Shown here one piece after another: positions 16,410 to 35,396 of a DNA stretch of 64,000 nt. Made by a program: the position numbers and the translations under genes. The notes beneath the pieces are model-generated. The model was given only the letters and a program-made list of their open reading frames with translations. It did no database searches and had not been told where the DNA came from. The first letter of the stretch is position 1. Each line of letters starts with the position of its first letter. Location of the stretch: NCBI GenBank assembly GCA_015066105.1, contig SVOY01000001.1:248001-312000 (forward strand), written 5' to 3'. Source of the DNA: Oscillospiraceae bacterium. GTDB lineage: Bacteria > Bacillota > Clostridia > Oscillospirales > Acutalibacteraceae.

Positions 16410-16438
16410 TTGACAAAAATCCCTTTTAGTGATAAAAT
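16410..16438 (+). promoter_or_regulatory. Sigma-A promoter of the first T-box operon
   Basis: TTGACA (16410-16415), a 17-base spacer and TAAAAT (16433-16438). It directly precedes the T-box leader. Confidence 0.85.
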
Positions 16439-16720
16439 GCTTTTCAATATTACTAAATGCGTTGACGAAATTAAGGTTTATCCGTCGTGCTTACAGAGAG
16501 TCGGTGCTTGGTGCAAACCGATACACAAGGTTAAATCAGTCTCATTTCTGAGCAGGGTCATTGAAGGCAGTTGCTGTGTAGGTGACCACGGACGCCCCGT
16601 TATCATGGCTAAAGGCTTGTCAGAGTCTTGAAGGTGACTGCAGATGCAGTAAACAAGGTGGTACCGCGGATTATATTCGTCCTTGAAATTACTTTAGTAG
16701 TTTCAAGGGCGTTTTTTTGA
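16439..16720 (+). ncRNA. T-box leader, leucine-type (specifier CTC)
   Basis: Stem I is closed by TGAC near 16463-16466 and GTCA at 16557-16560. The AGAGAG motif (16495-16500) precedes the apical arm TCGGTGCTTGGTGCAAACCGA. The specifier region reads CTC (16541-16543) followed by ATTTCTGAG, the usual layout of codon, short linker and (C)TGAG. The T-box proper AAGGTGGTACCGCGG is at 16655-16669. The terminator CGTCCTTGAAA (16678-16688)/TTTCAAGGGCG (16701-16711) ends in seven Ts. Known function: uncharged tRNA with the matching anticodon stabilises the antiterminator. The Leu call is by eye; ATC at 16534-16536 is a less likely alternative. Confidence 0.88.
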
Positions 16721-16749
16721 TAAAAATTTTTTAAAAGGAGCAGAACGAT

Positions 16750-18138
16750 ATGAAAACAATATCCATTGCAGACATTACACTCAAAAAGCTTTCCGAGGAC
16801 AGAGCTGTATCCTTGCTATTCCGTGAAAAATCGGCAATCGCAGGCTGTGCAGATGAAATCGGCGCAGAGGTAATTGAATTGCCTGCAGTAAAATCTGCAC
16901 GTGAAGATAAAATTATTTATAAGACCATAGCACAGAATATCCGCAACGCTGTTCTTGCAATTCCCGTAGGCTTCACCGCCGAAACGGTTGCAACAGCCTG
17001 GGATTGCATTAAAGAGGCAAAAAAGCCCCGCCTTCAGATTGAGCTTCCCGTATCCACAATTCAGATGGAATACACATATCACGTAAAGCAGGAAAAAATG
17101 CTTGTAAAAATTGCAGAGCTTGTAAAGCAGGCAAAGGCCTGCTGTGAGGACGTTGAATTTTCAGCACTTGATGCTACAAGGGCAGACGCTGATTTCCTCG
17201 TTTCGGCAATAGGCGAGGCCGTTGCAAACGGTGCAACCTCTGTTACAATCTGTGACGATGCGGGTGCTTCAACCCCCGATGAAATTGCCGCACTTACCGC
17301 AAGGGTAAAAGCGAGTGTTTGCGTTCCCGTTTATGTGCAGGTATCAGACCGCATCAATATGGCGGTTGCCTCTGCCTTTGCCGCAATTGCACAGGGTGCA
17401 GACGGACTCAAGTGCGCAATGGCGGGCAAGGATGCTCTTCTTGTGGGAGAGCTTTCTGATGCAATCAATGCCTGCTCGGCACAGACCGGTGCGGTAATCA
17501 ATGTAAACAGAACGAAAATTCACGCAAGCATTGACGATATTACAACCAACATCAACCGCAGTTTGTATGAAAACGAAGCTGCAATAAGCGAGGAAAACAA
17601 GCTTCTGCTTGATTCTGATTCAACGGCAGCCCAGGTAGCTCAGGCTGCAGCCGTGCTCGGCTATGAGCTTTCAGATTCTGACATCGGAAACGTATATAAG
17701 GCTCTTAAGCACGTCTGCGAGAAAAAGGGCGCCGTAGGCTCAAAGGAGTTTGAAGCTCTTATCGCTTCTTCTGCAATGCAGGCTCCCTCAACCTATCATT
17801 TTGAAACCTATACAACAACAAGCAGTAACGTTTCAAAGTCAATGTCACAGGTTACTCTTAAGTGTAACGGCGAAATTATCTGCGGCGTAAGCAACGGTGA
17901 CGGTCCTATTGACTCTGCTTTCCGTGCAATTGAGCAGTGTATCGGACATCACTATGAGCTTGATGACTTCCAGGTTCAGGCTGTGACAGAGGGTAAGGGT
18001 GCTTTGGGCTCTGCTCTTGTAAAACTTCGTAACAACGGTAAGCTTTATTCCGGTAACGGTACCTCTACCGACATTGTTTCAGCAAGCATCAGAGCTTATA
18101 TAAATGCCTTGAACAAGATTGTATTTGAGGAGGCATAA
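16750..18138 (+). CDS. LeuA-like pseudoenzyme (2-isopropylmalate synthase fold, catalytic motifs lost)
   Basis: 462 residues aligning over their length with 2-isopropylmalate synthase: a TIM barrel (about 1-280) and a C-terminal LeuA regulatory/dimerization domain (about 350-460; GDGPIDSAFRAI, GKGALG, STDIVSASIRAY). The barrel lacks what the enzyme needs. The RDGEQ motif is replaced around residues 12-18 (KKLSEDR); the metal-binding HxHDD becomes V196-QVSDR with Gln197 and Ser199 in place of the two His; and NGIGERAGN becomes AGKDALLVG. It is therefore unlikely to make isopropylmalate. It is first behind a Leu T-box and two bases before an acyl-CoA ligase gene, so a leucine-responsive regulator or scaffold is a fair inference. 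Confidence 0.8.
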   Translation: MKTISIADITLKKLSEDRAVSLLFREKSAIAGCADEIGAEVIELPAVKSAREDKIIYKTIAQNIRNAVLAIPVGFTAETVATAWDCIKEAKKPRLQIELPVSTIQMEYTYHVKQEKMLVKIAELVKQAKACCEDVEFSALDATRADADFLVSAIGEAVANGATSVTICDDAGASTPDEIAALTARVKASVCVPVYVQVSDRINMAVASAFAAIAQGADGLKCAMAGKDALLVGELSDAINACSAQTGAVINVNRTKIHASIDDITTNINRSLYENEAAISEENKLLLDSDSTAAQVAQAAAVLGYELSDSDIGNVYKALKHVCEKKGAVGSKEFEALIASSAMQAPSTYHFETYTTTSSNVSKSMSQVTLKCNGEIICGVSNGDGPIDSAFRAIEQCIGHHYELDDFQVQAVTEGKGALGSALVKLRNNGKLYSGNGTSTDIVSASIRAYINALNKIVFEEA

Positions 18139-18139
18139 A

Positions 18140-20599
18140 ATGAAAATTGTTTTTTCAACAAAAAATGTCAGCCGTGCATCCTTCCTTGATATTTGCCGTT
18201 ATGCCTATGATTACGGCTTTGAAGGCTTCGAAATTTATGACGCTATCAAAGAAAGAAACGGACATCACGACAGCATTTTAAGACAGGACCGCGTTGCGGA
18301 TGCAAAAAGAAAGCTTGTGAACAGAAATCTCGCAGTTTCTGCTCTTCGTATGCCTTATCCCGTTGAAAGCGAGGAAACAACAGCCGAGCTTGTTTATAAA
18401 TATGTATCAATGGCGGCTGCTTCAGGTGTTGACAATGTTATTGTCCGCGTTGAAGATAAGGTGTCCTTTGATGTGCTTGATGAAAAGCTCGTTGATGCAA
18501 TCGGATATGCAGAGGCTACCGATGTAAATATTTTATTTGAAACCGTAGGCTATCTTGCAGAAACCGAAAATGTAATCGGCATTATCAATCACTTTGCTTC
18601 ATCTGCAATAGGTGCTTCATGGAATGTAAGAGGCACATATTTCAGCGCAGGTGAAACCGCCGAAACAACAATCAAGAGTCTCGGTGCTTATATCAAATAT
18701 GTGCGCTTGGGCGATATGAAGGACGGTAAGACCGTTCTTATCGGTGAGGGCGACCTTGATGTTGAAAAGCTTATCGGTGCGCTTTCTTCACTTAACTATG
18801 AGGGCTTTATCTGTGCGGCATGGAATGAGGAAATCAGCGATGCTGATATTGTTCTTACTCATTTCACTAACTATATTTCAGCTCTCAACCGTGATAAAAA
18901 GACCTTCGACCACGCTTATTACAACCGAGACAAGTCGGGTACATTTGTATGGAAAAAGTACGATGTCATAGAGGCTACCTTCTCTGACGTTCTTGACACA
19001 ATGGCAGAAACCTATCCCGACCAGTACGCTTTTAAATATCCTACCCTTGATTATACAAGAACTTATGAGCAGTTCCGCCGTGATGTTGATGAGTGTGCCG
19101 CAGCGCTCATTTCACTTGGTGTAAAAGCAGGCGATCATGTTGCAGTCTGGGCAACTAATGTTCCTCAGTGGTTCATTACCTTCTGGGCAACAACAAAAAT
19201 CGGTGCGGTTCTTGTTACTGTCAACACTGCTTATAAGGTTCATGAAATTGAATATCTTTTAAGACAGTCTGATACTCATACTCTTGTTATGATTGAAAAC
19301 TGTAAGGATATTAACTATAAGGAGATTATTGAAGAGCTTTGTCCCGAGCTTAAAACTCTTATTCCCGGTACACCTCTTTATTCAAAAAATCTTCCCTTCC
19401 TTCGTAATGTTGTAACTGTAGGCTTTTCTATGGACGGATGTCTCACTTGGGAGCAGATGCTTTCACGCTCATCTCTCATTCCCCGTGAGGAGGTGCGAAG
19501 ACGCGCCAGCCTTGTAAAGCCCGACGATGTATGCAATATGCAGTATACATCAGGTACAACAGGCTTCCCCAAGGGCGTTATGCTTACTCACCGCAATATC
19601 GTAAATAACGGTAAGTGCATCGGCGACAGAATGGATCTTTCCACTGCTGACCGTATGATGATTCAGGTTCCGATGTTCCATTGCTTCGGCATGGTGCTTT
19701 CAATGACCTCAACGATGACTCACGGCGGCACACTCTGTCCTATTCCGTATTTCTCACCCAAGTCATCACTTGCATGCGTAAACGATGAAAGAATCACTTG
19801 CTTCAACGGTGTTCCCACAATGTTTATCGCGATGTTCAATCATCCCGACTTTGCAAAAACCGACTTCTCATATATGAGAACGGGCATTATGGCAGGTGCC
19901 AACTGTCCCGCTGACCTTATGCGCCGTGCTTCTGTTGAAATGAATATGCGTGAGATTATTTCCGTTTACGGTCAGACAGAGGCTTCACCCGGCTGTACAA
20001 TGGGTGAGGTAAATGAGGACCTTGACCACCGTGTGGAAACTGTAGGCAGTGCCTTCCCCGGTGTTGAATGTAAGATTATTGACCCCGAAACAGGTGATGA
20101 GCTTCCCGACGGTGAAAGCGGCGAATTTGTTGCAAGAGGCTTCAATATTATGAAGGGCTACTACAAAATGCCTGAGGCAACTGCACAGGCTATTGATGCT
20201 GAAGGCTGGCTTCATTCAGGCGATATTTGTATGAGAACACCCGACGGATACTATAAGGTTACGGGTCGACTCAAGGATATGATTATCCGCGGCGGTGAAA
20301 ACCTTTATCCCCGTGAAATTGAGGAATTCTACCTTACCAATCCCAAGGTGCGCGATGTTCAGGTCGTCGGTGTTCCCGATGAAAGATACGGTGAGGAATG
20401 CTGTGCATGGGTTATCCTTCATAAGGGTGAAACCGCTGATGAAAATGAGATGAAGGAATACGGTAACGCTTCAATCGCAAGACATAAGGTTCCCAGATAC
20501 TTCATTTTTGTTGAGGAATTCCCCATGAACGCTGCCGGTAAGATTCTTAAGTATAAAATGCGCGATGAATCCGTTGAAAAGTTAGGTCTGAAAAAGTAA
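18140..20599 (+). CDS. TIM-barrel/acyl-CoA ligase fusion (AMP-forming)
   Basis: 819 residues. Residues 1-250 resemble the sugar phosphate isomerase/AP-endonuclease-2 TIM barrel (LFETVGYLAET, GEGDLDVEKLIGAL), but the usual metal ligands look incomplete: GASWNVRGTYF sits where the family has a D-x-x-H segment. Residues about 275-819 are a complete AMP-forming acyl-CoA synthetase: YTSGTTGFPKGV (469-480), YGQTEASPG, LHSGDI, GRLKDMIIRGGENLYP, and AAGKILKYKMR with the catalytic Lys. ATG 18140 follows GAGGAGG (18126-18132). Second gene of the Leu-type T-box operon; a branched short-chain acid such as isovalerate is the inferred substrate. Confidence 0.85.
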   Translation: MKIVFSTKNVSRASFLDICRYAYDYGFEGFEIYDAIKERNGHHDSILRQDRVADAKRKLVNRNLAVSALRMPYPVESEETTAELVYKYVSMAAASGVDNVIVRVEDKVSFDVLDEKLVDAIGYAEATDVNILFETVGYLAETENVIGIINHFASSAIGASWNVRGTYFSAGETAETTIKSLGAYIKYVRLGDMKDGKTVLIGEGDLDVEKLIGALSSLNYEGFICAAWNEEISDADIVLTHFTNYISALNRDKKTFDHAYYNRDKSGTFVWKKYDVIEATFSDVLDTMAETYPDQYAFKYPTLDYTRTYEQFRRDVDECAAALISLGVKAGDHVAVWATNVPQWFITFWATTKIGAVLVTVNTAYKVHEIEYLLRQSDTHTLVMIENCKDINYKEIIEELCPELKTLIPGTPLYSKNLPFLRNVVTVGFSMDGCLTWEQMLSRSSLIPREEVRRRASLVKPDDVCNMQYTSGTTGFPKGVMLTHRNIVNNGKCIGDRMDLSTADRMMIQVPMFHCFGMVLSMTSTMTHGGTLCPIPYFSPKSSLACVNDERITCFNGVPTMFIAMFNHPDFAKTDFSYMRTGIMAGANCPADLMRRASVEMNMREIISVYGQTEASPGCTMGEVNEDLDHRVETVGSAFPGVECKIIDPETGDELPDGESGEFVARGFNIMKGYYKMPEATAQAIDAEGWLHSGDICMRTPDGYYKVTGRLKDMIIRGGENLYPREIEEFYLTNPKVRDVQVVGVPDERYGEECCAWVILHKGETADENEMKEYGNASIARHKVPRYFIFVEEFPMNAAGKILKYKMRDESVEKLGLKK

Positions 20600-20619
20600 T
20601 ATTTTTTTCTGAAAACATA

Positions 20620-20648
20620 TTGACTTTAGCTGTTCAGAGTGGTATAAT
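20620..20648 (+). promoter_or_regulatory. Sigma-A promoter of the second T-box gene
   Basis: TTGACT (20620-20625), a 17-base spacer and TATAAT (20643-20648), placed just after the stop of the preceding ligase gene. Confidence 0.85.
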
Positions 20649-20937
20649 TTTGTCCAAATTGAATACTAAAAGCTGTGACGAAGACGGACGAAACAGTGTT
20701 TTTACAGAGAGCCGACGGTGCTGCGAGTCGGTAAGCCGAGTTTCATTTTCCCATCACTTCCGAGCTGAAAGCCCGAACATTTTTAATAAGTAGACGCTTT
20801 CCGTGATTGCTGCGTTAATGCATAGAGCTTGTTGGAGCTTGAGGTGGCGATAAATTATCGCAATTTGAGTGGTACCGCGGGTTACTTGAAAGTATCTCGT
20901 CTCAAAGTCAGTCTTTGAGACGAGTTTTGTTTTTTTA
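20649..20937 (+). ncRNA. T-box leader, isoleucine-type (specifier ATC)
   Basis: AGAGAG (about 20706-20711) precedes the apical arm CCGACGGTGCTGCGAGTCGG. The specifier region reads ATC (20753-20755) followed by ACTTCCGAG. The T-box TGAGTGGTACCGCGG is at 20866-20880; its first bases differ slightly from the common AAGGTGG form. The terminator CTCGTCTCAAAG (20896-20907)/CTTTGAGACGAG (20913-20924) ends in a T-rich tract. A perfect small palindrome GCGATAAATTATCGC (20847-20861) lies in the antiterminator region. Known role: read-through when the cognate tRNA is uncharged. The Ile reading is by eye. Confidence 0.88.
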
Positions 20938-20984
20938 TAAACTCCTCAAGGCTTAATCCTATAATAAAGAAAGGTTGGAAAAAC

Positions 20985-23249
20985 ATGGAAAACTTGAACA
21001 AACGACTTAAGGAAGTAGCCGCCAGAATTAAGGAAATGCGTGAAATTGCCGGTTATTCCGAAGCTGAAATGGCTGAAAAGACCGACATCACCGTTGAAGA
21101 GTATCTTCAGTATGAAAAGGGTGAGGCTGATTTCCCTTTTACCTTTATTCATAAGTGTGCAAAGGTCTTTTCAATAGAAATGACCGACTTGCTTGAGGGT
21201 AAAAGCGCACGCCTTTCCTCTTATGCCGTTACACGAAAGGGCGCAGGTAAAATAACCTCTAAGGAGGAGGGCATTGAAATCAACAACCTTGCTCCTCTTT
21301 TCCGCCACAAGCTTGCAGAGCCCTACCTTGCAAAATACGAATATAAGCCCGAGCTTCAGGATAAGCCTATTGAAACAACAACCCATAAGGGTAACGAGTT
21401 TGACTATGTGCTTTCCGGCAAGCTCAAGGTGAGAATAGGTGACAACACCGAAATTCTTTCAGAGGGCGACAGCATCTATTACAGAAGCTCAACTCCTCAC
21501 GGTATGATAGCCGTTGACGGTGAGGACTGCACCTTCCTTGCAGTTGTTGTTGCAGGTGACGACACGGGCGATGAAGCCATTGAAAAGGCATTCCACGGTG
21601 CCGTTAAGTCAGAGCATAAGCTTGTTGTCAAGGAGTTCATTGATACCGTTGAGGATGAAAACGGCGTGCTTCAGAGCATCAGCTTCAAAAACGAGGACAG
21701 ATTCAACTTTGCCTTTGACGTTGTTGATGCCGTTGCCGATAAGTATCCCGATAAGCTTGCAATGCTTCACATTTCCCGTGATAAGACGGAGAGAAGATTC
21801 ACTTATAACGATATCAAGAAGGAGTCTGCCCGTGCGGCAAACTATTTCAGAAGCCTCGGTATAACAAAGGGCGACAGAGTTATGCTTGTGCTCAAGCGTC
21901 ATTATCAGTTCTGGATTTGTGCCCTTGCACTTCACAAGCTCGGTGCAATCATTATTCCCGCAACAAATCAGCTTGTTGAGCACGATTTTGATTACCGCTT
22001 CAAGGCCGCCGGAGTAAAGGCAATCCTCTGCACCGCAGACGGCAGCACCTCAGACCACGTTGATAAGGCCGCTGAAACCTACGGCGAGCTTGAGCTCAAG
22101 ATTATGGTTAACGGCGAAAAGGAAGGCTGGCACTGCTTTGACAGCGAGTATAAGCTTTTCAGAAGCATTTTTGACAGAGAGGCTGATACAGCCTGCGGCA
22201 ACGATGTAATGCTTATGTTCTTCACCTCAGGCACAACCGGCTATCCCAAAATTGCCGCTCACTCATACAAATATGCACTCGGTCACTTCATCACCGCAAA
22301 ATACTGGCACGCAATTGAGCCTACAGACCTTCACCTTACAATTTCAGATACGGGCTGGGGCAAGGCTCTGTGGGGTAAGTTCTACGGACAGTGGATGTGC
22401 GAGGCAGCAGTCTTCGCCTATGACTTTGACCGCTTTGATGCCTCCGATATTCTTCCTATGTTCAGCAAGTACAACATCACAACCTTCTGTGCACCTCCCA
22501 CAATGTACAGAATGCTTATAAAGGAAGACCTTTCAAAGTTTGACCTTTCCTCAATCAGATATGCAACCACTGCAGGTGAGGCACTTAATCCCGAGGTTTA
22601 TTTCCAGTTCGAAAAGGCAACGGGCCTTTCAATTATGGAAGGCTTCGGTCAGACGGAAACAACACTTACCGTTGCAAACCTTGTTGGCACAAAGAACAAG
22701 GTTGGCGCAATGGGTAAGCCCGTGCCCGGCTACGATATTGTTATCGTTGACCCCGACGGAAATCCCTGCCCTGTTGGTGAAACGGGCGAAATCTGTATCA
22801 GAACCGACAGCAAGGTTCCCTGCGGCCTCTTTATGGGCTATTACAGAGATGCCGAAAAGACCGACGAGGTATGGCACGACGGTATGTATCACACCGGTGA
22901 TACCGCCTGGCAGGATGAGGAAGGCTACCTGTGGTATGTCAGCCGTATTGATGACGTCATAAAATCCTCGGGCTACCGTATAGGACCCTTTGAAATTGAA
23001 AACGTTATTATGGAGCTTCCCTATGTTCTCGAGTGCGGCGTTTCCGCTGCCCCCGATGAAATCAGAGGCCAGGTTGTAAAGGCAAGCATTGTGCTCACAA
23101 AGGGCACCGAGCCTACGGAAGAGCTTAAAAAGGAAATTCAGAAATACGTTAAGGAAAACACCGCACCCTATAAGTATCCCAGAATCGTTGTGTTCAGAGA
23201 TGAGCTTCCCAAAACAATCAGCGGTAAAATTCAGAGAAATAAGCTTTAA
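20985..23249 (+). CDS. HTH-cupin-acyl-CoA ligase fusion (AMP-forming)
   Basis: 754 residues with three parts. Residues about 5-70 form an XRE-type helix-turn-helix (IKEMREIAGYSEAEMAEKTD). Residues about 105-190 form a cupin (HKGNEFDYVLSGKLKVRIGD, EGDSIYYRSSTPHG). Residues about 240-754 are an acyl-CoA synthetase of the medium-chain type: FTSGTTGYPK (413-422), GFGQTETTL, YHTGDTAW, SRIDDVIKSSGYRIGP, PKTISGKIQRNKL. Known HTH-cupin proteins sense small ligands; here the sensor part is fused to the enzyme. It is a single gene behind an Ile-type T-box, suggesting 2-methylbutyrate activation for isoleucine synthesis (inference). Confidence 0.87.
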   Translation: MENLNKRLKEVAARIKEMREIAGYSEAEMAEKTDITVEEYLQYEKGEADFPFTFIHKCAKVFSIEMTDLLEGKSARLSSYAVTRKGAGKITSKEEGIEINNLAPLFRHKLAEPYLAKYEYKPELQDKPIETTTHKGNEFDYVLSGKLKVRIGDNTEILSEGDSIYYRSSTPHGMIAVDGEDCTFLAVVVAGDDTGDEAIEKAFHGAVKSEHKLVVKEFIDTVEDENGVLQSISFKNEDRFNFAFDVVDAVADKYPDKLAMLHISRDKTERRFTYNDIKKESARAANYFRSLGITKGDRVMLVLKRHYQFWICALALHKLGAIIIPATNQLVEHDFDYRFKAAGVKAILCTADGSTSDHVDKAAETYGELELKIMVNGEKEGWHCFDSEYKLFRSIFDREADTACGNDVMLMFFTSGTTGYPKIAAHSYKYALGHFITAKYWHAIEPTDLHLTISDTGWGKALWGKFYGQWMCEAAVFAYDFDRFDASDILPMFSKYNITTFCAPPTMYRMLIKEDLSKFDLSSIRYATTAGEALNPEVYFQFEKATGLSIMEGFGQTETTLTVANLVGTKNKVGAMGKPVPGYDIVIVDPDGNPCPVGETGEICIRTDSKVPCGLFMGYYRDAEKTDEVWHDGMYHTGDTAWQDEEGYLWYVSRIDDVIKSSGYRIGPFEIENVIMELPYVLECGVSAAPDEIRGQVVKASIVLTKGTEPTEELKKEIQKYVKENTAPYKYPRIVVFRDELPKTISGKIQRNKL

Positions 23250-23274
23250 TTTATAAAAAATATACTTTTTGATG

Positions 23275-23303
23275 TTGAAAAACATTGCAAGTTGTTTTAT
23301 AAT
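23275..23303 (+). promoter_or_regulatory. Sigma-A promoter of the ATPase-kor-ilvE operon
   Basis: TTGAAA (23275-23280), a 17-base spacer and TATAAT (23298-23303). There is no T-box between it and the first gene, so the oxidoreductase is expressed independently of the two T-box units. Confidence 0.8.
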
Positions 23304-23340
23304 ACTCTAATAGCGTTTAATCGGAAGGGAGTTGTATCGG

Positions 23341-23997
23341 GTGAAGCGTCTTACTCTTTTTGCGGGCCATTACGGCAGCGGAAAAACAAACATAGCCGTA
23401 AACTATGCAATGATGCTCAAAAGGCAGGGCTATGACGTAATTATTGCCGACCTCGATATTGTCAACCCATATTTCCGCACAAAGGACAGTGAAAGGGAGC
23501 TTAATGAAATGGGCATTGAGCTCATAAGCTCAAGGTTTGCAAATTCAAACCTTGATATTCCCTCACTGCCGCAGGAAATGTACCGTACGGTGCAGGATAA
23601 AAGCAAATACGCCGTTATGGATATAGGCGGCGACGATGCGGGTGCCGTTGCACTCGGCAGATTTGCTCCCTTTATCAAAGAGGAGAACAATTACGATATG
23701 GTTTTCGTCGTTAATTTTTACCGTCCTCTTTCCCGCACGGCCGAGGAGGCCCTTGAGATTATGCGTGAGATTGAGGCTGCTTCAAAGCTGAAGTTTACCT
23801 CAATTATCAACAACTCAAACCTCGGTGAGCTTACCGCTGCACAGGATGTTCTCGCAACCGTAGCGGAGGCTGAAAGGCTTTCAGCGCTCAGCGGCTTACC
23901 GATAAAAATGACAAGCGTAAAACAAAGCTTGTTCAACGAGCTGAATGACAAGACAAATAGTTTGTTTTGCCTTGCTTTGCAAAATAAAATCTTTTAA
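23341..23997 (+). CDS. ParA/MinD-like P-loop ATPase of the oxidoreductase operon
   Basis: A 218-residue soluble ATPase with deviant Walker A GHYGSGKT (9-16), DLDIVNPYFRTKDSE, and Walker B-like VMDIGGDDAGAVALG. GTG 23341 is chosen because GGAAGGGA lies ten bases upstream; TTG 23332 is too close to it. It leads the operon with the ferredoxin and 2-oxoacid oxidoreductase subunits, 14 bases before korD. Its precise role is not known to me; iron-sulfur or complex assembly is a guess from fold and position. Confidence 0.75.
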   Translation: MKRLTLFAGHYGSGKTNIAVNYAMMLKRQGYDVIIADLDIVNPYFRTKDSERELNEMGIELISSRFANSNLDIPSLPQEMYRTVQDKSKYAVMDIGGDDAGAVALGRFAPFIKEENNYDMVFVVNFYRPLSRTAEEALEIMREIEAASKLKFTSIINNSNLGELTAAQDVLATVAEAERLSALSGLPIKMTSVKQSLFNELNDKTNSLFCLALQNKIF

Positions 23998-24011
23998 AAC
24001 GGAGGAGCTTT

Positions 24012-24218
24012 ATGGCAAAGGTAACATTTAAAACAGATTCATGCAAGGGCTGCGGACTTTGTGTCGAAGCCTGTCCCAAAAAGATTCTTGTAATCGCAAA
24101 GGACAAAATCAATGCCAAGGGACATTCGCCCGCCGAAATGACTGACGAAAGCAAATGCATCGGTTGTGCCTTCTGTGCAACCATGTGTCCGGACTGTATA
24201 ATCAAGGTTGAAAAGTGA
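24012..24218 (+). CDS. korD: 2-oxoacid:ferredoxin oxidoreductase, delta (ferredoxin) subunit
   Basis: A 68-residue double [4Fe-4S] ferredoxin-like subunit. Cysteines C11/C14/C17/C21 and C49/C52/C55/C59 form two CxxCxxCxxxC sets. It passes electrons between the ThDP centre and free ferredoxin. It starts after GGAGGAG and is followed 12 bases later by the alpha subunit gene. In VOR-type enzymes the same subunit is called VorD. Confidence 0.92.
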   Translation: MAKVTFKTDSCKGCGLCVEACPKKILVIAKDKINAKGHSPAEMTDESKCIGCAFCATMCPDCIIKVEK

Positions 24219-24230
24219 GGTTAGAAAAAA

Positions 24231-25295
24231 ATGGCTGAAAAAGTTCTTATGAAGGGTAACGAGGCTATTGCGGAGGCCGCTATTCTTGCAGGCTGCCGTC
24301 ATTACTTCGGCTATCCCATCACACCGCAGACAGAAATTGCGGCTTATATGGCAAAGAAAATGCCCAAAATCGGCGGCTGCTTCCTTCAGGCTGAAAGCGA
24401 GGTTGCGGCAATCAATATGGTTTACGGCGTTGCAGGTACAGGTAAAAGAGTTATGACATCCTCATCAAGCCCCGGAATTTCTCTTAAGGCAGAGGGTCTG
24501 TCATATATGGCAGGCAGTGATTTGCCCTGTCTTGTAGTTAATGTTCAGCGCGGCGGCCCCGGTCTCGGCGGCATCCAGCCCTCACAGTCTGACTATTTCC
24601 AGGCAACAAAGGGCGGCGGACACGGTGACTACAGAATGATTGTTCTTGCACCCTCCTCAGTTCAGGAGATGGCAAGCCTTACCGTCAAGGGCTTTGACCT
24701 TGCAGATAAGTACAGAATGACCTCAATGATTCTTGCCGACGGTACACTCGGCCAGATGATGGAGCCCGTTTCTCTTGAAGAGGCTGTTGTTGAAAACTAT
24801 GATAAGTCCTGGGCAGTTACGGGCACTGAAATGAAGAGAAAGAAGAACCTTATCAATTCTCTTTCACTTGACCCCGAGGAGCTTGAAAGACTTAACTTTG
24901 CAAGATATGAGAAATATAAGCTTATTGAAGAAACCGAGGCAATGTATGAGGAATATATGATGGACGATGCTGAAATCTGCATCTGTGCCTTCGGTATCAC
25001 TGCAAGAATTGCCAAGAATGCTATTGCAATGGCACGTGCCAAGGGCATCAAGGCAGGTCTTATCCGTCCCATCACACTCTGGCCCTTCCCCACAAAGGTG
25101 TTTGAGGCTGCCGCAGATAAGGTAAAGGCTTTTGTCTGTGTTGAAATGTCAATGGGACAGATGATTGAAGACGTTAAGCTTGCAACAAAATGTAAAAAGC
25201 CCGTTTCGCTCTGCAACAGAGTAGGCGGTATGATTCCTTCACCCGAGCAGGTGCTCGAAAAGATTATTGAAGCTTCAGAAGGAGGTAATGAATAA
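24231..25295 (+). CDS. korA: 2-oxoacid:ferredoxin oxidoreductase, alpha subunit (VorB/KorA type)
   Basis: A 354-residue subunit with the PYR-type domain (ILAGCRHYFGYPITPQTEIA, LQAESEVAAINMVYGVAGTG, TSSSSPGISLKAEGLSYM) and domain II near the C-terminus (FGITARIAKNAIAMARAKG). Such enzymes interconvert a 2-oxoacid plus CoA plus oxidised ferredoxin with acyl-CoA, CO2 and reduced ferredoxin. Whether the substrate is 2-oxoisovalerate-like or 2-oxoglutarate cannot be settled from sequence; the ilvE gene in the operon favours branched-chain oxoacids. It overlaps korB by one base. Confidence 0.9.
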   Translation: MAEKVLMKGNEAIAEAAILAGCRHYFGYPITPQTEIAAYMAKKMPKIGGCFLQAESEVAAINMVYGVAGTGKRVMTSSSSPGISLKAEGLSYMAGSDLPCLVVNVQRGGPGLGGIQPSQSDYFQATKGGGHGDYRMIVLAPSSVQEMASLTVKGFDLADKYRMTSMILADGTLGQMMEPVSLEEAVVENYDKSWAVTGTEMKRKKNLINSLSLDPEELERLNFARYEKYKLIEETEAMYEEYMMDDAEICICAFGITARIAKNAIAMARAKGIKAGLIRPITLWPFPTKVFEAAADKVKAFVCVEMSMGQMIEDVKLATKCKKPVSLCNRVGGMIPSPEQVLEKIIEASEGGNE

Positions 25296-26053
25296 TGGTA
25301 GTTTTTGATAAACCCAAGTCACTTGCAGATGTACCCTTACATTACTGTCCCGGCTGTACTCACGGTATTATTCACCGCCTTGTTGCCGAGGCTATTGACG
25401 AGCTCGGCATTGAGGGCAGAACAATCGGTGTTGCTCCCGTAGGCTGCAGCGTGCTTGCTTACAATTATTTCAACTGCGATATGGTAGAGGCCGCACACGG
25501 CAGAGCTCCCGCAGTTGCAACCGGCCTCAAGCGCTCAGACCCCGATAAGCACATTGTTTTCACTTATCAGGGTGACGGAGACCTTGCTTCAATCGGTATG
25601 GCTGAAACAGTACATTCCGCCGCAAGAAATGAAAACATCACAATTATCTTCGTAAACAATGCAATTTACGGTATGACAGGCGGCCAGATGGCTCCCACCT
25701 CACTGCCCGGTCAGGTTACACAGACCTCTCCCTACGGCAGAGACACAAGCCATTGCGGCTTCCCCGTAAAGGTTTCCGAAATGCTTTCACAGCTTGACGG
25801 TGCAGGCTATATTGAAAGAGTTGCCGTCAATAATGTAAAGAACGTAAGAAACGCAAAGAAGGCTATCAAAAAGGCATTTCAGAATCAGCTTGAGGGCAAG
25901 GGCTTCTCACTTGTTGAGGTTATTTCAACCTGCCCCACAAACTGGGGTATGACTCCCGTTGATGCACTCAAGTGGGTTGATGAAAAAATGATTCCTTATT
26001 ATCCTCTCGGTGTATATAAGGACAGAGATGCCGAAAGCAAGGAGGAAGCATAA
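25295..26053 (+). CDS. korB: 2-oxoacid:ferredoxin oxidoreductase, beta (ThDP) subunit
   Basis: A 252-residue subunit with the thiamine diphosphate motif starting GDGDLASIG (93-101) and ending in NN (121-122), and the cluster-binding CPGC (18-21) near the N-terminus. TGGQMAPTS follows, as in VOR/KOR beta subunits. It forms the active site with the alpha subunit. Confidence 0.92.
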   Translation: MVVFDKPKSLADVPLHYCPGCTHGIIHRLVAEAIDELGIEGRTIGVAPVGCSVLAYNYFNCDMVEAAHGRAPAVATGLKRSDPDKHIVFTYQGDGDLASIGMAETVHSAARNENITIIFVNNAIYGMTGGQMAPTSLPGQVTQTSPYGRDTSHCGFPVKVSEMLSQLDGAGYIERVAVNNVKNVRNAKKAIKKAFQNQLEGKGFSLVEVISTCPTNWGMTPVDALKWVDEKMIPYYPLGVYKDRDAESKEEA

Positions 26054-26054
26054 A

Positions 26055-26591
26055 ATGAGCACAAAACAGATTTTAATTGCAGGCTTCGGCGGACAGGGCG
26101 TTCTTTTTGCGGGCAAGCTTCTTGCTTACAAGGGCCTTATCGCTGATAAGCAGGTTTCCTGGCTTCCCTCATACGGCCCCGAAATGCGCGGCGGCACAGC
26201 CAACTGCAGTGTTATCATCAGCGATACACCCGTAGGCTCACCCATCATTTCAAATCCCGACGTGCTTGTTGCAATGAACCTTCCCTCACTCAGAAAGTAT
26301 GAGAACGAGGTTGTCAGGGACGGTATTATTATCGTTGACTCAAGCCTTATCGCAGAAAAGGTTGAGCGTGACGATGTTACGGTTTATTATGTGCCCGCAA
26401 CAAAAATGGCAAAGGACGAGGGCTTTGCAACCCTTGCAAATATGATTCTTATGGGCAAGCTTATGAAGGCTTGCGTGGAAATCGGCTTTGACGGCGTTGA
26501 AGCCGCCGTTGCAAAGGTTGTTCCTCCCCGTAAGGCAAACCTTATCGATGTTAACCTTAAGGCTATCAAGGCCGGCTACGATTTTGAATAA
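26055..26591 (+). CDS. korC: 2-oxoacid:ferredoxin oxidoreductase, gamma subunit
   Basis: A 178-residue subunit with the family opening ILIAGFGGQGVLFAGKLLAY, followed by SWLPSYGPEMRGGTANC and a PPRKANLIDVNLKAI tail. ATG 26055 is one base after the korB stop with GGAGGAAG upstream. It completes a four-subunit D-A-B-C enzyme. Confidence 0.92.
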   Translation: MSTKQILIAGFGGQGVLFAGKLLAYKGLIADKQVSWLPSYGPEMRGGTANCSVIISDTPVGSPIISNPDVLVAMNLPSLRKYENEVVRDGIIIVDSSLIAEKVERDDVTVYYVPATKMAKDEGFATLANMILMGKLMKACVEIGFDGVEAAVAKVVPPRKANLIDVNLKAIKAGYDFE

Positions 26592-26607
26592 TTGAGAGGT
26601 GCTTAAA

Positions 26608-27675
26608 ATGGATATTAAAATTACAAAAACAACCGCTCCCAAGGCAAAGCCTCAGAAGGGTGACAAGCTTGGATTCGGTCACATTTTTACAGACCATATG
26701 TTCATTATGAACTACACAGAAGGCAAGGGCTGGCACGATGCAAGAATTGAGCCCTATGCAAACATTTCACTTGCTCCCTCGGCAATGGTTTTCCATTACG
26801 GTCAGGAGATGTTTGAGGGCCTTAAGGCATACCGCGGTGCAGACGATTCAATTTATCTCTTCCGCCCCGATATGAACGCAAAAAGAGCAAACGCTTCAAA
26901 CGAAAGACTCTGCATCCCAGAAATTCCCGAGGATATGTTTGTAGATGCCGTAAAGGCTCTTGTTGATATCGACAGAGACTGGGTACCCTCAGATGAAGGC
27001 ACCTCACTTTACATCCGTCCCTTTGTAATTGCAACCGACGAGTTCCTCGGCGTTGCTCCCTCAAAGACGTATCTCTTCATTGTTATCCTTTCACCCTCGG
27101 GTGCTTACTATGAAAGCGGTCTTGCTCCCGTAGGCATCTGGATTGAGGATGACTATGTAAGAGCCGTAAAGGGCGGTATGGGCTTTGCAAAAACAGGCGG
27201 TAACTATGCTGCTTCACTTATTGCACAGGTTAAGGCTCACGATGCAGGCTATTCACAGGTGCTCTGGCTTGACGGTGTTGAAAGAAAGTACATCGAAGAG
27301 GTCGGCGCAATGAACATTATGTTCAAGATAAACGGCAAGGTTGTTACACCTGCTCTCAACGGCAGTATTCTTCCCGGTATCACACGTAACTCCATCATCA
27401 ACGTTTGCAAGGCATGGGGCTATGAGGTTGAGGAAAGACGCGTAAGCGTTGACGAGCTTGTTGAGGCCGCAAAGAACGGCACCCTTGAAGAGGTATGGGG
27501 AACGGGCACCGCCGCAGTTGTTTCACCCGTAGGCAAGCTTCGTTATATGGACGACGTTATGACAATCGGTGACGGCGGAATCGGTGAGCTCACTCAGAAG
27601 CTCTATGACGAGCTTACCGGTATCCAGTGGGGCAAAAGAGAAGATCCCTACGGCTGGAGAGTTCTTGTAAAATAA
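26608..27675 (+). CDS. ilvE: Branched-chain amino acid aminotransferase
   Basis: A 355-residue fold-type IV PLP enzyme that interconverts Leu, Ile and Val with their 2-oxoacids. The PLP lysine is K195 in FAKTGGNYAAS; RKYIEEVGAMNIMF and the GTGTAAVVSPV cofactor-phosphate loop are typical of the longer (eukaryote-like) BCAT group. ATG 26608 follows GAGAGGTG. Sitting directly after korC, it links the oxoacids made or used by the oxidoreductase to amino acids. Confidence 0.94.
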   Translation: MDIKITKTTAPKAKPQKGDKLGFGHIFTDHMFIMNYTEGKGWHDARIEPYANISLAPSAMVFHYGQEMFEGLKAYRGADDSIYLFRPDMNAKRANASNERLCIPEIPEDMFVDAVKALVDIDRDWVPSDEGTSLYIRPFVIATDEFLGVAPSKTYLFIVILSPSGAYYESGLAPVGIWIEDDYVRAVKGGMGFAKTGGNYAASLIAQVKAHDAGYSQVLWLDGVERKYIEEVGAMNIMFKINGKVVTPALNGSILPGITRNSIINVCKAWGYEVEERRVSVDELVEAAKNGTLEEVWGTGTAAVVSPVGKLRYMDDVMTIGDGGIGELTQKLYDELTGIQWGKREDPYGWRVLVK

Positions 27676-27691: not shown

Positions 27692-27730
27692 CGGTGTATC
27701 TGCATATTTTGTGCGGATACACCGCTTTTT
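27692..27730 (+). terminator. Terminator after ilvE
   Basis: CGGTGTATC (27692-27700) pairs with GATACACCG (27716-27724), extended by GCA/TGC inside, followed by CTTTTT. It closes the ATPase-kor-ilvE operon. Confidence 0.85.
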
Positions 27731-27856: not shown

Positions 27857-28783
27857 ATGGTTAAAGCATTTATTGACGGACAGGCGGGTACAACGGGCTT
27901 ACAGCTCAAAGCCAAGCTCGAAAAGCATCCCCTTGTTGAAATTATTGAAATAGAAGAAGCAAAGCGTAAGGATACCGCCGAAAGACAGAAGCTTATGAAC
28001 GAAGCAGACGTTGTTTTTCTTTGCCTTCCCGATGCGGCGGCAAAGGAGGCGGTAAAGCTTGTAACAAATCCCGATACGGTGGTGATTGATGCAAGCACCG
28101 CACACAGAACTTCCGAGGGCTGGACCTACGGCTTTCCCGAGCTCTCGGAAAAGCACAGAGCGGAAATCAGCCGCTCAAAAAAAATTGCAAACCCCGGTTG
28201 TCACGCAACGGGCTTTATTTCCTTGGTTTATCCCTTGATTGCTTCGGGCGTTATGCCTGCTTCTTATCCCGTTACCGCCCACAGCATAACGGGCTACAGC
28301 GGCGGCGGAAACAAAATGATAGGGGAATACGAAAGCGCAGACAGACCTGACGAATATGCTTCTCCCAGGCAGTACGGCCTTTCTCAGCTTCATAAGCATC
28401 TGCCGGAAATGAAAAAAATAACGGGTCTTGCGGCAGAGCCCGTATTCAACCCGATAGTAAGCGATTATTATTGCGGTATGGCAGTGAGCGTGCCCGTTCA
28501 TACTGCCTTGCTTGATAAAAAGCTTTCTGCCGAAAAAATTGCAGAGCTTTATAAAAACCATTATAAGGACTCGCCCTTTATTACGGTGAAGGAATTGCCC
28601 GAAAGCGGCTTCCTTTCACCAATGGGTCTTGAGGGTACAAATGAGCTTAATATTTATGTGGGCGGCAATGATGAAAGAATTACCCTCACCGCCGTGTTTG
28701 ACAATCTCGGCAAGGGAGCATCCTCGGCGGCGGTACAGAATATGAACATAGCCATGGGCTTTGACGAAAAAACAGCACTATAA
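27857..28783 (+). CDS. argC: N-acetyl-gamma-glutamyl-phosphate reductase
   Basis: A 308-residue NADPH-dependent reductase, third step of arginine synthesis. The short form starts with KAFIDGQAGTTGLQL and has catalytic C115 in ANPGCHATGF, fitting the type-2 (about 310 residue) ArgC group. HSITGYSGGG follows. It is the first gene of the argCJBD operon. Confidence 0.95.
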   Translation: MVKAFIDGQAGTTGLQLKAKLEKHPLVEIIEIEEAKRKDTAERQKLMNEADVVFLCLPDAAAKEAVKLVTNPDTVVIDASTAHRTSEGWTYGFPELSEKHRAEISRSKKIANPGCHATGFISLVYPLIASGVMPASYPVTAHSITGYSGGGNKMIGEYESADRPDEYASPRQYGLSQLHKHLPEMKKITGLAAEPVFNPIVSDYYCGMAVSVPVHTALLDKKLSAEKIAELYKNHYKDSPFITVKELPESGFLSPMGLEGTNELNIYVGGNDERITLTAVFDNLGKGASSAAVQNMNIAMGFDEKTAL

Positions 28784-28798
28784 TCCGGAGGTAGTATT

Positions 28799-30013
28799 AT
28801 GAAATATATTGACGGCGGCGTAACTGCCGCAAAGGGCTTTACCGCATCGGGCATACATTGCGGCATAAGGAAAAATCAGACAAAAAAGGACCTTGCAATG
28901 ATTAAAAGCGAGGTTAAGGCTGCCGCGGCGGCGGTTTACACACAAAACAAGGTTTACGGTGCACCTATCACCGTAACAAGAAACAACCTTGCCGACGGCT
29001 ATGCTCAGGCGGTAATTGTAAACAGCGGCAACGCAAACACCTGCAACAGCGACGGTGTTTTAAAGGCTGAAATGATGTGCGATATAGCTTCAAAGGCCCT
29101 TTCGGTTGATAAAGGGGATGTTATTGTTGCCTCAACGGGCGTTATCGGTATGACACTTGACGTTACACCTATTGCAAATCACGCTGAAAAGCTTGCTTCG
29201 CAGATGTCGGCCGAGGGCGGCAACGATGCGGCACACGCCATTATGACAACGGATACAATCCCCAAGGAGTGCGCCGTTGAAATTGAGCTCGGCGGCAAAG
29301 CCGTGACTCTCGGTGCCTGCTGTAAGGGCTCGGGTATGATTCATCCCAATATGGCAACAATGCTCTGCTTTATGACAACTGACTGCAAAATCAGTCCCGC
29401 CATGCTTCAGAAGGCACTGAGCGATACAGTGAAGGATACCTTCAATATGATTTCCGTTGACGGTGATACCTCAACAAACGATATGGTCTGCATTATGGCA
29501 AACGGTTATGCCGATAATGCTGAAATCACTGAGGAAAATGCAGATTTTGAAGCCTTTAAAAAGGCACTTAAGGAGGTTTCCGTAAAGCTGTCACGTCTTA
29601 TAGCGGGCGACGGTGAGGGCGCACAGAGGCTTCTTGAATGTACCGTAACGGGTGCACCCGAGGAAATAACCGCAAAAAAAATTGCAAAATCAATCATCTG
29701 CTCTTCACTTGTTAAAACCGCAATGTTCGGTGCTGATGCCAACTGGGGCAGAGTACTCTGCGCCATCGGCTATACCGAGGGTGACTTCAGCGTTGATAAA
29801 ATTGACGTTTATCTTTCATCCTGCAAGGGTGAAATCAAGGTTTGCGCAAATGGCTTCGGCATTGAATTTTCTGAAGAAAAGGCAAAGGAAATCCTTCTTG
29901 AAAATGAAATTATCCTTACGGTAAATATGAATCAGGGCAGCTGTGAAGCCACGGCCTGGGGCTGTGACCTTACCTATGATTATGTTAAAATCAACGGCGA
30001 TTACCGCACATAA
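28799..30013 (+). CDS. argJ: Glutamate N-acetyltransferase / amino-acid N-acetyltransferase
   Basis: A 404-residue self-cleaving enzyme that moves acetyl from N-acetylornithine to glutamate, so the pathway is cyclic. The autoproteolysis site is A186-T187 in HPNMATMLCF, preceded by KGSGM. Also VNSGNANTCNS (oxyanion region). The presence of ArgJ removes the need for a separate ArgE. It starts after GGAGGT, 15 bases downstream of argC. Confidence 0.95.
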   Translation: MKYIDGGVTAAKGFTASGIHCGIRKNQTKKDLAMIKSEVKAAAAAVYTQNKVYGAPITVTRNNLADGYAQAVIVNSGNANTCNSDGVLKAEMMCDIASKALSVDKGDVIVASTGVIGMTLDVTPIANHAEKLASQMSAEGGNDAAHAIMTTDTIPKECAVEIELGGKAVTLGACCKGSGMIHPNMATMLCFMTTDCKISPAMLQKALSDTVKDTFNMISVDGDTSTNDMVCIMANGYADNAEITEENADFEAFKKALKEVSVKLSRLIAGDGEGAQRLLECTVTGAPEEITAKKIAKSIICSSLVKTAMFGADANWGRVLCAIGYTEGDFSVDKIDVYLSSCKGEIKVCANGFGIEFSEEKAKEILLENEIILTVNMNQGSCEATAWGCDLTYDYVKINGDYRT

Positions 30014-30025
30014 GAGGTGTACATA

Positions 30026-30898
30026 ATGGATGAAAAGCTTGTAATTACAGACAGTATGAAGGCACAGGTGCTTACGGCGGCCTTGCCTTATATACAAAAA
30101 TACTACGGAAAAACCGTTGTTGTAAAATACGGCGGAAATGCAATGATAAACCCCGAGCTTAAGCAGGCTGTTATGAGTGATATTATTCTGCTTACCCTTG
30201 TCGGCATCAGGGTTGTGCTTATTCACGGCGGCGGCCCCGAAATCAGCGGTATGCTCAAAAAGCTGGGCATAGAGTCAAAATTCGTAAACGGCCTCAGGTA
30301 TACCGATAAGGAAACGGCAGAGGTTGTGCAGATGGTGCTTGCAGGAAAAACCAACAAGGACCTTGTTTCCCTTGTTGAGCGCAGCGGCGGCAAGGCCGTA
30401 GGCCTTTGCGGAATTGACGGTGCAATGATTAAGGCAAAGCCTATGGAGGATGAGTTCGACTACGGCTTTGTGGGCGATATAACGGGAATTGACCCTAAGC
30501 CTATTGAAAAGGTGCTTGAGGAGGGCTATATCCCCGTTATAGCAACCGTCGGCATTGATGACGGCGGCCAGGTCTACAACATCAACGCGGATACTGCGGC
30601 GGCAGAAATTGCGGCGGCACTTCACGCAGAAAACATTATCACCCTTTCCGATATTCCCGGACTTTTAAGGGATGTCAGTGACCCCGAAACGCTTATTTCG
30701 GAAATTCACGTTGACCAGGTGCCGGAGCTTATTGAAAGCGGCATAATTTCGGGCGGTATGATACCTAAAATGAAAAGCTGTGTAAAGGCTGTGAACAGCG
30801 GTGTTAAAAAGGCCGTTATGATTGACGGAAGAATACCTCATTCAATCCTCATTGAAATGTTTTCTGATGAGGGTATAGGTACACTTATGACAAAGTGA
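30026..30898 (+). CDS. argB: Acetylglutamate kinase
   Basis: A 290-residue amino acid kinase. KYGGNAMIN binds ATP phosphate, HGGGPEIS binds substrate, and the C-terminal GGMIPKMKSCVKAV region is typical. The N-terminal helix (about residues 1-25) is the kind found in arginine-inhibited hexameric forms. ATG 30026 follows AAGAGGTG. It phosphorylates N-acetylglutamate, the second step. Confidence 0.95.
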   Translation: MDEKLVITDSMKAQVLTAALPYIQKYYGKTVVVKYGGNAMINPELKQAVMSDIILLTLVGIRVVLIHGGGPEISGMLKKLGIESKFVNGLRYTDKETAEVVQMVLAGKTNKDLVSLVERSGGKAVGLCGIDGAMIKAKPMEDEFDYGFVGDITGIDPKPIEKVLEEGYIPVIATVGIDDGGQVYNINADTAAAEIAAALHAENIITLSDIPGLLRDVSDPETLISEIHVDQVPELIESGIISGGMIPKMKSCVKAVNSGVKKAVMIDGRIPHSILIEMFSDEGIGTLMTK

Positions 30899-30909
30899 GG
30901 CAAGAAAAA

Positions 30910-32094
30910 ATGAGCAATTTTGAAAAAATACAGCAGACCGATAAACAGTATGTTGCAAACACCTACGGCCGCTTTCCCGTTGCAATAGAAAAGGGCAAGG
31001 GTGCAACCTGCTATGATTTTGACGGAAAAAAGTATATAGATTTTTCAAGCGGTATCGGCGTAAACTCCCTGGGCTTTTGTGATGAGGGCTGGGTAGAGGC
31101 CGTTACAAAGCAGCTGACAACCCTTCAGCATATATCAAATCTTTATTACACCTCTCCCTGCGCCGAAGCGGCAAAATTACTTTGCGAAAGAACGGGTATG
31201 AAAAAAGTTTTCTTTTCAAACAGCGGTGCAGAAAGCAATGAGGGTGCAATAAAGTGTGCCCGTAAATACAGCCTGATGAAATACGGCGAGGGCAGAAGCA
31301 AAATTCTCACCCTCAACAACTCCTTCCACGGCAGAACGGTAACAACCCTTGCGGCAACGGGTCAGGATGTTTTTCACAATTTCTTCTTCCCCTTTACCGA
31401 GGGCTTTGAGTTCACGCCCGCAAATGACCCTGACGCACTTAAAAAGGCTCTTGAGGATAGCTCTGTGTGCGCACTTATGATGGAGGTGATTCAGGGCGAG
31501 GGCGGTGTAATGCCCCTTGACGAAGCCTTTGTAAAGGAAGCCGAAAGGCTTTGCAGAGAAAAGGACATCCTGCTTATAATCGATGAGGTGCAGACCGGTG
31601 TGGGCAGAACGGGCAAGCTTTTCGCCTTTGAGCATTACGGCATTTCTCCCGATATTGTCACTACCGCAAAGGGCCTGGGCGGCGGTCTTCCTCTCGGCTG
31701 TGTTATGTTCGGTGAAAGAACGGAAAATGTGCTTGTTGCAGGTGACCACGCCACAACCTTCGGCGGAAATCCCGTGGCAACTGCCGGTGCAAAATACATC
31801 CTTGAAAAAATGGATGCCGCCTTCCTTGACGGTGTTGCCGAAAAAGGGGAGTATATCAGAAGCCGCCTTGAAAAAATGCCGCACGTGCTCGGCTGTGACG
31901 GCAAGGGTATGATGATTGGTGTACGCCTTGACAGCGAGGTCAAGGCCGCAGATATTGTAAAAAAGGGTATAGAAAACGGCGTTCTTGCGCTTACCGCAAA
32001 GGTGAAGCTTCGTCTGCTTCCGCCGCTTACAATAACCTTTGCCGAAATTGACGAGGGCCTTGACGCCATAGAAAAGGCTCTTGAGGAAATTTAA
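30910..32094 (+). CDS. argD: Acetylornithine aminotransferase
   Basis: A 394-residue class III PLP aminotransferase. NSGAESNEGAIKCARKY, IDEVQTGVGRTG and the PLP lysine K254 in TAKGLGGGLPLG are plain. It makes N-acetylornithine in the fourth step of arginine synthesis. ATG 30910 follows GAGGCAAG, just after argB. argF, argG and argH are not in this window. Confidence 0.95.
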   Translation: MSNFEKIQQTDKQYVANTYGRFPVAIEKGKGATCYDFDGKKYIDFSSGIGVNSLGFCDEGWVEAVTKQLTTLQHISNLYYTSPCAEAAKLLCERTGMKKVFFSNSGAESNEGAIKCARKYSLMKYGEGRSKILTLNNSFHGRTVTTLAATGQDVFHNFFFPFTEGFEFTPANDPDALKKALEDSSVCALMMEVIQGEGGVMPLDEAFVKEAERLCREKDILLIIDEVQTGVGRTGKLFAFEHYGISPDIVTTAKGLGGGLPLGCVMFGERTENVLVAGDHATTFGGNPVATAGAKYILEKMDAAFLDGVAEKGEYIRSRLEKMPHVLGCDGKGMMIGVRLDSEVKAADIVKKGIENGVLALTAKVKLRLLPPLTITFAEIDEGLDAIEKALEEI

Positions 32095-33730: not shown

Positions 33731-33847
33731 GCGTTACGATGTTGCAAAAGTTACAATCTGTTAACAAATCCATAAAAATTAAAGAATATTGTGAATATAT
33801 AATGACTAAGAAATTTGTGGCATTATATTTTGATAAGGGGCGCAAAA

Positions 33848-35383: not shown

Positions 35384-35396
35384 GGAGGTAATTTGA

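Follow-up and report, generated by a model that had tools for sequence, protein, structure and literature searches.

A stretch of 64,000 nucleotides from an Oscillospiraceae bacterium (GenBank assembly GCA_015066105.1, contig SVOY01000001.1, positions 248,001 to 312,000), called the window below, holds a locus in which two T-box leaders precede genes of acyl-CoA ligases. The gene order is T-box 1, a LeuA-like protein and ligase 1 (LIG1), then T-box 2, ligase 2 (LIG2), a nucleoside triphosphatase (NTPase), a ferredoxin, the VorBAC subunits of a 2-oxoacid:ferredoxin oxidoreductase (VOR) and the aminotransferase IlvE. The locus probably encodes two salvage branches, from isovalerate to leucine and from 2-methylbutyrate to isoleucine, each with its own T-box-gated ligase and both sharing VOR and IlvE. 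Its features, in window coordinates, are the following.

16410..16438, + strand: promoter-like site before T-box 1, TTGACA-17-TAAAAT, 11/12 (consensus match only)
16453..16687, + strand: T-box 1 (RF00230), specifier CUC = Leu at 16541-16543
16678..16711, + strand: terminator hairpin of T-box 1
16750..18138, + strand: LeuA-like protein, 462 aa, HMGL-like half and LeuA_dimer half; predicted leucine-sensing pseudo-synthase
18140..20599, + strand: LIG1, AP_endonuc_2 TIM barrel and AMP-forming acyl-CoA ligase; predicted isovaleryl-CoA ligase
20620..20648, + strand: promoter-like site before T-box 2, TTGACT-17-TATAAT, 11/12
20666..20907, + strand: T-box 2 (RF00230), specifier AUC = Ile at 20753-20755
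20896..20924, + strand: terminator hairpin of T-box 2
20985..23249, + strand: LIG2, XRE, cupin and AMP-forming acyl-CoA ligase; predicted 2-methylbutyryl-CoA ligase
22359-22361, + strand: Gly459 codon of LIG2
23275..23303, + strand: promoter-like site before the VOR-IlvE unit, TTGAAA-17-TATAAT, 11/12
23332..23997, + strand: CbiA/ParA-type NTPase (Pfam)
24012..24218, + strand: ferredoxin-like protein, two 4Fe-4S motifs, delta subunit type (Pfam, NCBIfam)
24231..25295, + strand: VorB, 2-oxoacid:ferredoxin oxidoreductase alpha subunit (NF005507)
25295..26053, + strand: VOR beta subunit, thiamine pyrophosphate-binding (below every NCBIfam cut-off)
26055..26591, + strand: VOR gamma subunit (below every NCBIfam cut-off)
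26608..27675, + strand: branched-chain aminotransferase, IlvE class II (TIGR01123)
27692..27724, + strand: terminator-like hairpin 3' of ilvE

Leaders and enzyme families of the locus

T-box 1 reaches 110.6 bits against the Rfam gathering score of 93 (RF00230) and is the sole T-box above that threshold in the window. Searched alone, T-box 2 obtains 86.3 bits (E 1.5e-19) over the full length of the model (1-219), below the gathering score; it has a terminator, the GGUACCGCG stretch and a specifier whose Ile codon recurs in relatives. A search of the window's own genome (G000; 2.48 Mb, 27 contigs, 85% complete) finds nine T-boxes, both leaders included. The specifiers CUC and AUC occupy identical columns of the model and dozens of species keep the Leu and Ile codons, which bears out the Leu and Ile assignments made in a preliminary description of this DNA. 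An alignment of 24 Leu leaders shows no variation in the first two specifier bases and a C at the third except in one CUG, and the flanking bases before and after the specifier are variable. The terminator hairpins have energies of -15 kcal/mol (T-box 1) and -19.1 kcal/mol (T-box 2), and none of 200 shuffles was as low.

Promoter-like sites matching 11 of 12 positions lie upstream of both T-boxes (16410 and 20620), in a region where such patterns occur 27 times against 16.6 expected by chance. A third such site, a strong one at 23275, separates LIG2 from the VOR-IlvE unit, which the hairpin at 27692 closes. The position of LIG2 suggests that T-box 2 controls it; since the VOR-IlvE unit is bracketed by the site at 23275 and the hairpin at 27692, this control may not reach VOR.

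The preliminary description placed a ligase behind each T-box, and an oxidoreductase and an aminotransferase after each ligase. The first statement is right for LIG2, which lies directly behind T-box 2; directly behind T-box 1 lies the LeuA-like gene, which had gone unmentioned. The second is also right for LIG2, with the promoter-like site 23275 in between, and wrong for LIG1. Pfam and NCBIfam confirm the oxidoreductase, ferredoxin, class II aminotransferase and ligase families that had been named. VorB scores 554.6 bits with NF005507 (cut-off 399) and IlvE class II 417.5 bits with TIGR01123 (cut-off 250.05), both above the cut-off.

Canonical genes and T-box codons in the genome and its relatives

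In the window's genome, ilvB, ilvN, ilvC and ilvD stand in a row from about 22 kb past the end of the window (ilvB and ilvN being recognised by eye). Valine is therefore probably made de novo from pyruvate, and leucine and isoleucine probably from branched acids; a supply of valine from isobutyrate was dropped for this genome, since ilvBNCD are present. By contrast, no leuA, leuC or ilvA was found in this 85% complete genome. The LeuA-like protein used as query matches itself alone, the Aconitase family matches only one 791-aa frame and hence no leuC-size gene, and the threonine deaminase model TIGR01127 has no match above its cut-off (best 81.9 against 378.75 bits); citramalate synthase is weakly detectable by the queries used. 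Where the preliminary description pointed to ilvC, ilvD and the leu genes as informative, ilvC and ilvD turned out to be present and leuC was not found, leuB and leuD not having been searched for. The seeming lack of the known entry genes for leucine and isoleucine fits a locus that has these two codons and no Val branch.

The comparison covered 59 genomes, 34 from one genus, two more from the same family and one from each of 23 other families. Counted in related genomes, which are not independent events, the TIM-barrel fusion that characterises LIG1 occurs together with a leuC-size gene in 4; 31 have the fusion without leuC, 17 have leuC without the fusion and 7 have neither (Fisher p 4e-6). 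The corresponding figures are 2, 9, 11 and 3 for the 25 genomes outside the genus (p 0.005), and 4, 17, 14 and 3 for the 38 genomes that are at least 90% complete (p 2e-4). In the same way, LIG2 and ilvA are both present in 3 genomes, LIG2 only in 36, ilvA only in 11 and neither in 9 (p 1e-4). Genomes G020 and G023 have leuC and LIG2, with no LeuA-like gene and no ilvA above cut-off, which would fit leucine made by the old route and isoleucine by the new one.

A scan of genome contigs with the TIM domain gave 509 confirmed loci, the best 80 of which form the set used below. All are records of metagenome-assembled genomes titled Oscillospiraceae, Clostridia or Clostridiales, and the titles name a ruminant gut site in 56 and no source in 24. 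The LeuA-like gene adjoins LIG1 in all 80. Among the 76 LeuA-like genes whose start is in reach, 71 are preceded by a T-box motif, which is readable in 70 and unread in one. Every readable leader offers a Leu codon (67 CUC, 3 CUG), which is the sole candidate in 48 cases and has one or two competitors in 22. Furthermore, the NTPase and the ferredoxin lie 5' of VorB in 14/14 loci of the set that hold VorB; as a guess, this NTPase could be a maturation factor for iron-sulphur centres or for VOR.

The 40 entries for LIG2 divide into 30 with AUC, 8 with GUA, one unassignable and one with no motif. A third branch, with a Val codon, is present in relatives. Where tandem LIG2 copies both have readable leaders, AUC belongs to the upstream copy and GUA to the downstream copy (L198, L200, L202, L204, L211, L222 and L082 of G057). 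Moreover, at the end of a contig G025 has a GUA T-box behind its Ile ligase, G029 has a separate GUC copy and G038 a stand-alone ligase behind GUA. The idea that the Val-codon ligase simply tracks loss of ilvC holds in G025, G029, G038 and G057 and is unsupported in 28 further genomes, reached through 28 loci of the set. In these genomes, whose completeness is not given, ilvC is missing from 7 of the 8 whose locus shows a Val-codon ligase and from all 20 with none in sight, and G063 is a Val-ligase genome with ilvC present, so that the set cannot show a link to ilvC. The idea of a Val ligase in G019, which has no ilvC match, was dropped, as a Val T-box stands before ilvBN instead. Val-codon T-boxes precede ilvB in L152 and L180 (G019) and in L173 (G001), with no ilvC match there; other genes follow ilvBN in G019, and the contig of G001 ends inside the operon.

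A T-box with UUC (Phe, by eye) stands before a phenylacetate-CoA-ligase-like gene (also by eye) in L143 (G033), L073 (G011, minus strand, about 8762), L083 (G046, 2062-3491) and L089 (G045, minus strand, about 15003), the next gene in L143 and L073 being ACT-domain-like. A fourth branch, from phenylacetate to phenylalanine, is possible; no Phe-codon T-box is among the nine of the window's own genome.

Directly 3' of the locus, at window positions 27857-32094, lie argC, argJ, argB and argD (by eye). The first two are also close to the locus in L071 and L072 and were not found at most other loci. Window positions 33815-36857 hold a further AMP-forming ligase of 522 aa, followed by a protein of 486 aa that by eye resembles a peptide-synthetase condensation domain.

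The two ligases and the LeuA-like protein

According to Pfam and NCBIfam, LIG2 joins an N-terminal XRE-cupin part to an AMP-forming ligase. In L104, L099 and L109, an XRE-cupin gene stands separately, directly 5' of a stand-alone ligase, so that the LIG2 of the window is probably a fusion of neighbours. Its best PDB sequence is 3etc, with 627 bits against 352.8 for the runner-up and alignment over residues 233-752. This is MacsMa of Methanosarcina acetivorans, for which 2-methylbutyrate is the preferred substrate, Trp259 is critical in substrate binding and a Gly replaces Trp416 of Acs (PMC10455477). The KYW and GFGQTE stretches, taken as the Trp259 and Gly sites of MacsMa, are retained in LIG2, and position 459 of LIG2 aligns with a Gly of 3etc. 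MacsMa differs in being a 580-residue archaeal chain that lacks the XRE-cupin part, and to our knowledge T-box control is not expected for it in M. acetivorans. LIG2 is thereby predicted, on protein likeness, to be a 2-methylbutyryl-CoA ligase.

The best NCBIfam family of LIG2 is MbcS (NF047394), whose threshold it misses (438 bits against a cut-off of 850); judging from this likeness, LIG2 may function like MbcS, though it is not classed as MbcS. The MbcS of Staphylococcus aureus activates 2-methylbutyrate and isobutyrate, hardly isovalerate, and feeds lipid priming (PMC10026030). Such a substrate range would explain why the Ile and Val branches use one ligase family and the Leu branch another. 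The lipid role of MbcS also speaks for a different reading of the locus, in which the ligases serve branched-chain fatty-acid synthesis by making acyl-CoA primers of membrane lipids and VOR makes more of them from 2-oxoacids. This is unlikely. Which codon the T-box carries, Leu, Ile or Val, goes with the type of ligase, which suits amino-acid supply, IlvE and VOR lie beside LIG2, and the LIG1 fusion and leuC rarely occur together.

If LIG2-type enzymes supply amino acids from branched acids, residue 459 may offer a hint of their substrates. It is Gly in 44/44 Ile-codon copies and Ala in 11/11 Val-codon copies, a comparison in which 53 of 55 rows are distinct and the Val label of L091 comes from gene order across two contigs. 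It is the sole fixed difference past residue 200 between the two types under the filter used (no residue in common, the commonest residue above 70% in the Ile set and above 60% in the Val set). Additional copies are L283 (Val, Ala) and L077, L079, L088 and L104 (Ile, Gly). The position presumably matches Val310 of the acetate pocket of Salmonella Acs. A quick tree of LIG2, in which L093 has a very long branch, needs two changes of codon label. As a proof of substrate, Gly459/Ala459 was dropped, and it was kept as a hint, on account of the related ligases without a readable T-box, where Ala is common and others have Met or Leu.

LIG1 consists of an N-terminal TIM-barrel domain (AP_endonuc_2) and an AMP-forming ligase (Pfam, NCBIfam). 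From its Leu T-box and its position alone, it is predicted to be an isovaleryl-CoA ligase. When the TIM domains are aligned, most of an isomerase-type E/D/H/E set is lost in the window's clade. That the domain is dead everywhere was considered and dropped, because the metal-type residues look intact in the G005-, G049- and G034-type proteins.

The LeuA-like protein shares fold and domain order with bacterial LeuA (TIGR00973; Mycobacterium tuberculosis LeuA, 3fig) and differs from it by the loss of the RDG and HxH motifs. LeuA_dimer (PF08502) is matched with 110.5 bits (Pfam cut-off 24.9) over profile positions 4-130 of 131, whereas the score with TIGR00973 is 219.6 bits, far below the cut-off of 598.7. 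Other residues replace the RDG of DTTLRDG and both His of HCHDD when the protein is compared with LeuA sequences of solved structure. None of 19 aligned LeuA-like proteins has the full RDG or the full HxH, the Arg being kept in two and the second His in one. This alignment has 28 invariant columns within residues 1-230 and 46 within 300-462. The predicted structure (mean predicted local distance difference test score, pLDDT, 77.9; below 50 at 269-283 and 404-438) matches LeuA structures, including leucine-bound 3fig. From sequence and model, the protein is predicted to be a leucine sensor acting on LIG1. It looks like an accessory, since in G034, G038 and G045 a Leu T-box (codons by eye) precedes LIG1 and no LeuA-like gene adjoins the ligase.

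Could LIG1, through its TIM domain, and the LeuA-like protein instead be working enzymes of a different leucine route, LIG1 activating something else? The two proteins are neighbours in 80/80 loci, the TIM barrel keeps the isomerase-type set in some relatives, and isovalerate is a predicted substrate of LIG1. We regard this as improbable, given the motif losses in all 19 LeuA-like proteins, the loss of most of the TIM set in the window's clade and the three genomes in which LIG1 does without an adjoining LeuA-like gene.

The proposed pathway and its meaning

Taken together, these features make the salvage of isovalerate and 2-methylbutyrate a likely and well supported pathway, as far as genes and leaders can tell; the substrates of the ligases, the direction of the VOR reaction and the function of the T-boxes are what we infer from them. 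Under leucine shortage, T-box 1 would turn on the LeuA-like gene and LIG1, and isovalerate would be converted to its CoA thioester. Under isoleucine shortage, T-box 2 would turn on LIG2, which would do the same for 2-methylbutyrate. The shared ferredoxin-dependent VOR would carboxylate both thioesters reductively, and IlvE would aminate the resulting oxoacids to leucine and isoleucine. The ligation step would be the control point, carboxylation and amination probably being expressed on their own. The LeuA-like protein could bind leucine and damp LIG1, the Leu branch being then tuned by both uncharged tRNA and free leucine.

A use in oxidative breakdown, with VOR oxidising branched 2-oxoacids and the ligases reversed to free acids for energy, is very improbable: VOR-type enzymes are reversible and serve such breakdown in other anaerobes, but T-boxes with terminators predict expression under amino-acid scarcity, AMP-forming ligases conserve no energy in reverse, and the window's genome yielded neither leuC nor ilvA. 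AMP-forming ligases spend ATP, which suits activation. The preliminary description had likewise argued for synthesis over breakdown, and it is supported in this by the constancy of the codons, by the failure to find leuA, leuC and ilvA, by the fusion and leuC being rarely together and by the closest solved relative of LIG2.

Several observations weigh against the salvage pathway. As regards the leaders, T-box 2 scores below the gathering score of Rfam, the VOR-IlvE unit may lie outside the control of either T-box, and no T-box motif precedes 5 of the 76 LeuA-like genes of the 80-locus set, nor was one seen before those of G037 and G057. As regards the canonical genes, the absence of citramalate synthase is weakly tested, and the missing leuA-leuC-ilvA cluster could be a gap at 85% completeness. 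That cluster lies on one contig, alongside salvage genes, in G003 and G031. LIG2 and ilvA occur together in G003, G009 and G031, and the fusion and a leuC-size gene in G003, G031 and also G034 and G056; the leuC count does not include a 286-aa piece of the Aconitase family in G021, and the relatedness of the genomes counted has to be kept in mind. As regards the proteins, LIG1 is without a characterised close relative (best PDB match 267 bits), and the LeuA-like model has low confidence in part of its allosteric half (pLDDT below 50 at residues 404-438). Ala459 is the commonest residue in related ligases without a readable T-box, a few having Met or Leu, and the match between Gly/Ala459 and codon could come partly from descent.

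Organisms that digest fibre in the rumen use branched volatile fatty acids as growth factors, and cattle receive these acids in their feed as isoacids. Their reductive carboxylation in rumen anaerobes was reportedly described by Robinson and Allison in 1969. In the ilv-leu operon of Bacillus subtilis, a T-box is said to read CUC (Marta et al. 1996). This gives Leu-dependent control, as proposed for T-box 1; it governs a pyruvate-based pathway, whereas T-box 1 precedes acid-activation genes. As the preliminary description stated, the chemistry is already established (PMC7356843, PMC2812497): isovalerate, 2-methylbutyrate and isobutyrate are rumen precursors of leucine, isoleucine and valine respectively (PMC7356843), and the methanogen M. 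ruminantium was proposed to make isoleucine by the 2-methylbutyrate route (PMC2812497). According to a 2020 paper on Prevotella, the reverse reaction 'was not proven yet' (PMC7709123). The overall chemistry is the one proposed for this locus, but in the available portions of PMC7356843 and PMC2812497 no dedicated ligase, tRNA-sensing control or LeuA-like partner is named. In the same way, the word acyl-CoA is absent from the main text of a T-box survey (PMC2494555) and of a survey of riboswitch regulons (PMC3766115). A search of titles and abstract openings, with most subscription journals outside it, found no publication joining T-boxes with branched-acid ligases. The T-box-read ligases, their modular exchange with canonical genes and the LeuA-derived candidate sensor thus appear undescribed, which agrees with what the preliminary description had supposed for the gene system and its tRNA-sensing control.

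A wider proposal, on which our confidence is evenly divided, is that Oscillospiraceae of the ruminant gut, together with related Clostridia, form a guild that uses interchangeable ligase modules to make leucine, isoleucine and valine, each from its own branched volatile fatty acid (and, in some, phenylalanine from phenylacetate), with matching T-box codons and one VOR, in place of lost canonical pathways. Gly or Ala at position 459 would set the choice between 2-methylbutyrate and isobutyrate, and a dead LeuA would be the leucine sensor of the isovalerate ligase. Within the literature searched, no publication was found that assigns the ligases and controls behind bacterial use of branched acids. 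If the reading of this locus is right, it would provide testable genes and a genome marker of gut bacteria that depend on branched acids made by others, the T-box codons would predict the substrate of each ligase, and a biosynthetic enzyme would have become a sensor serving the route that took its place.

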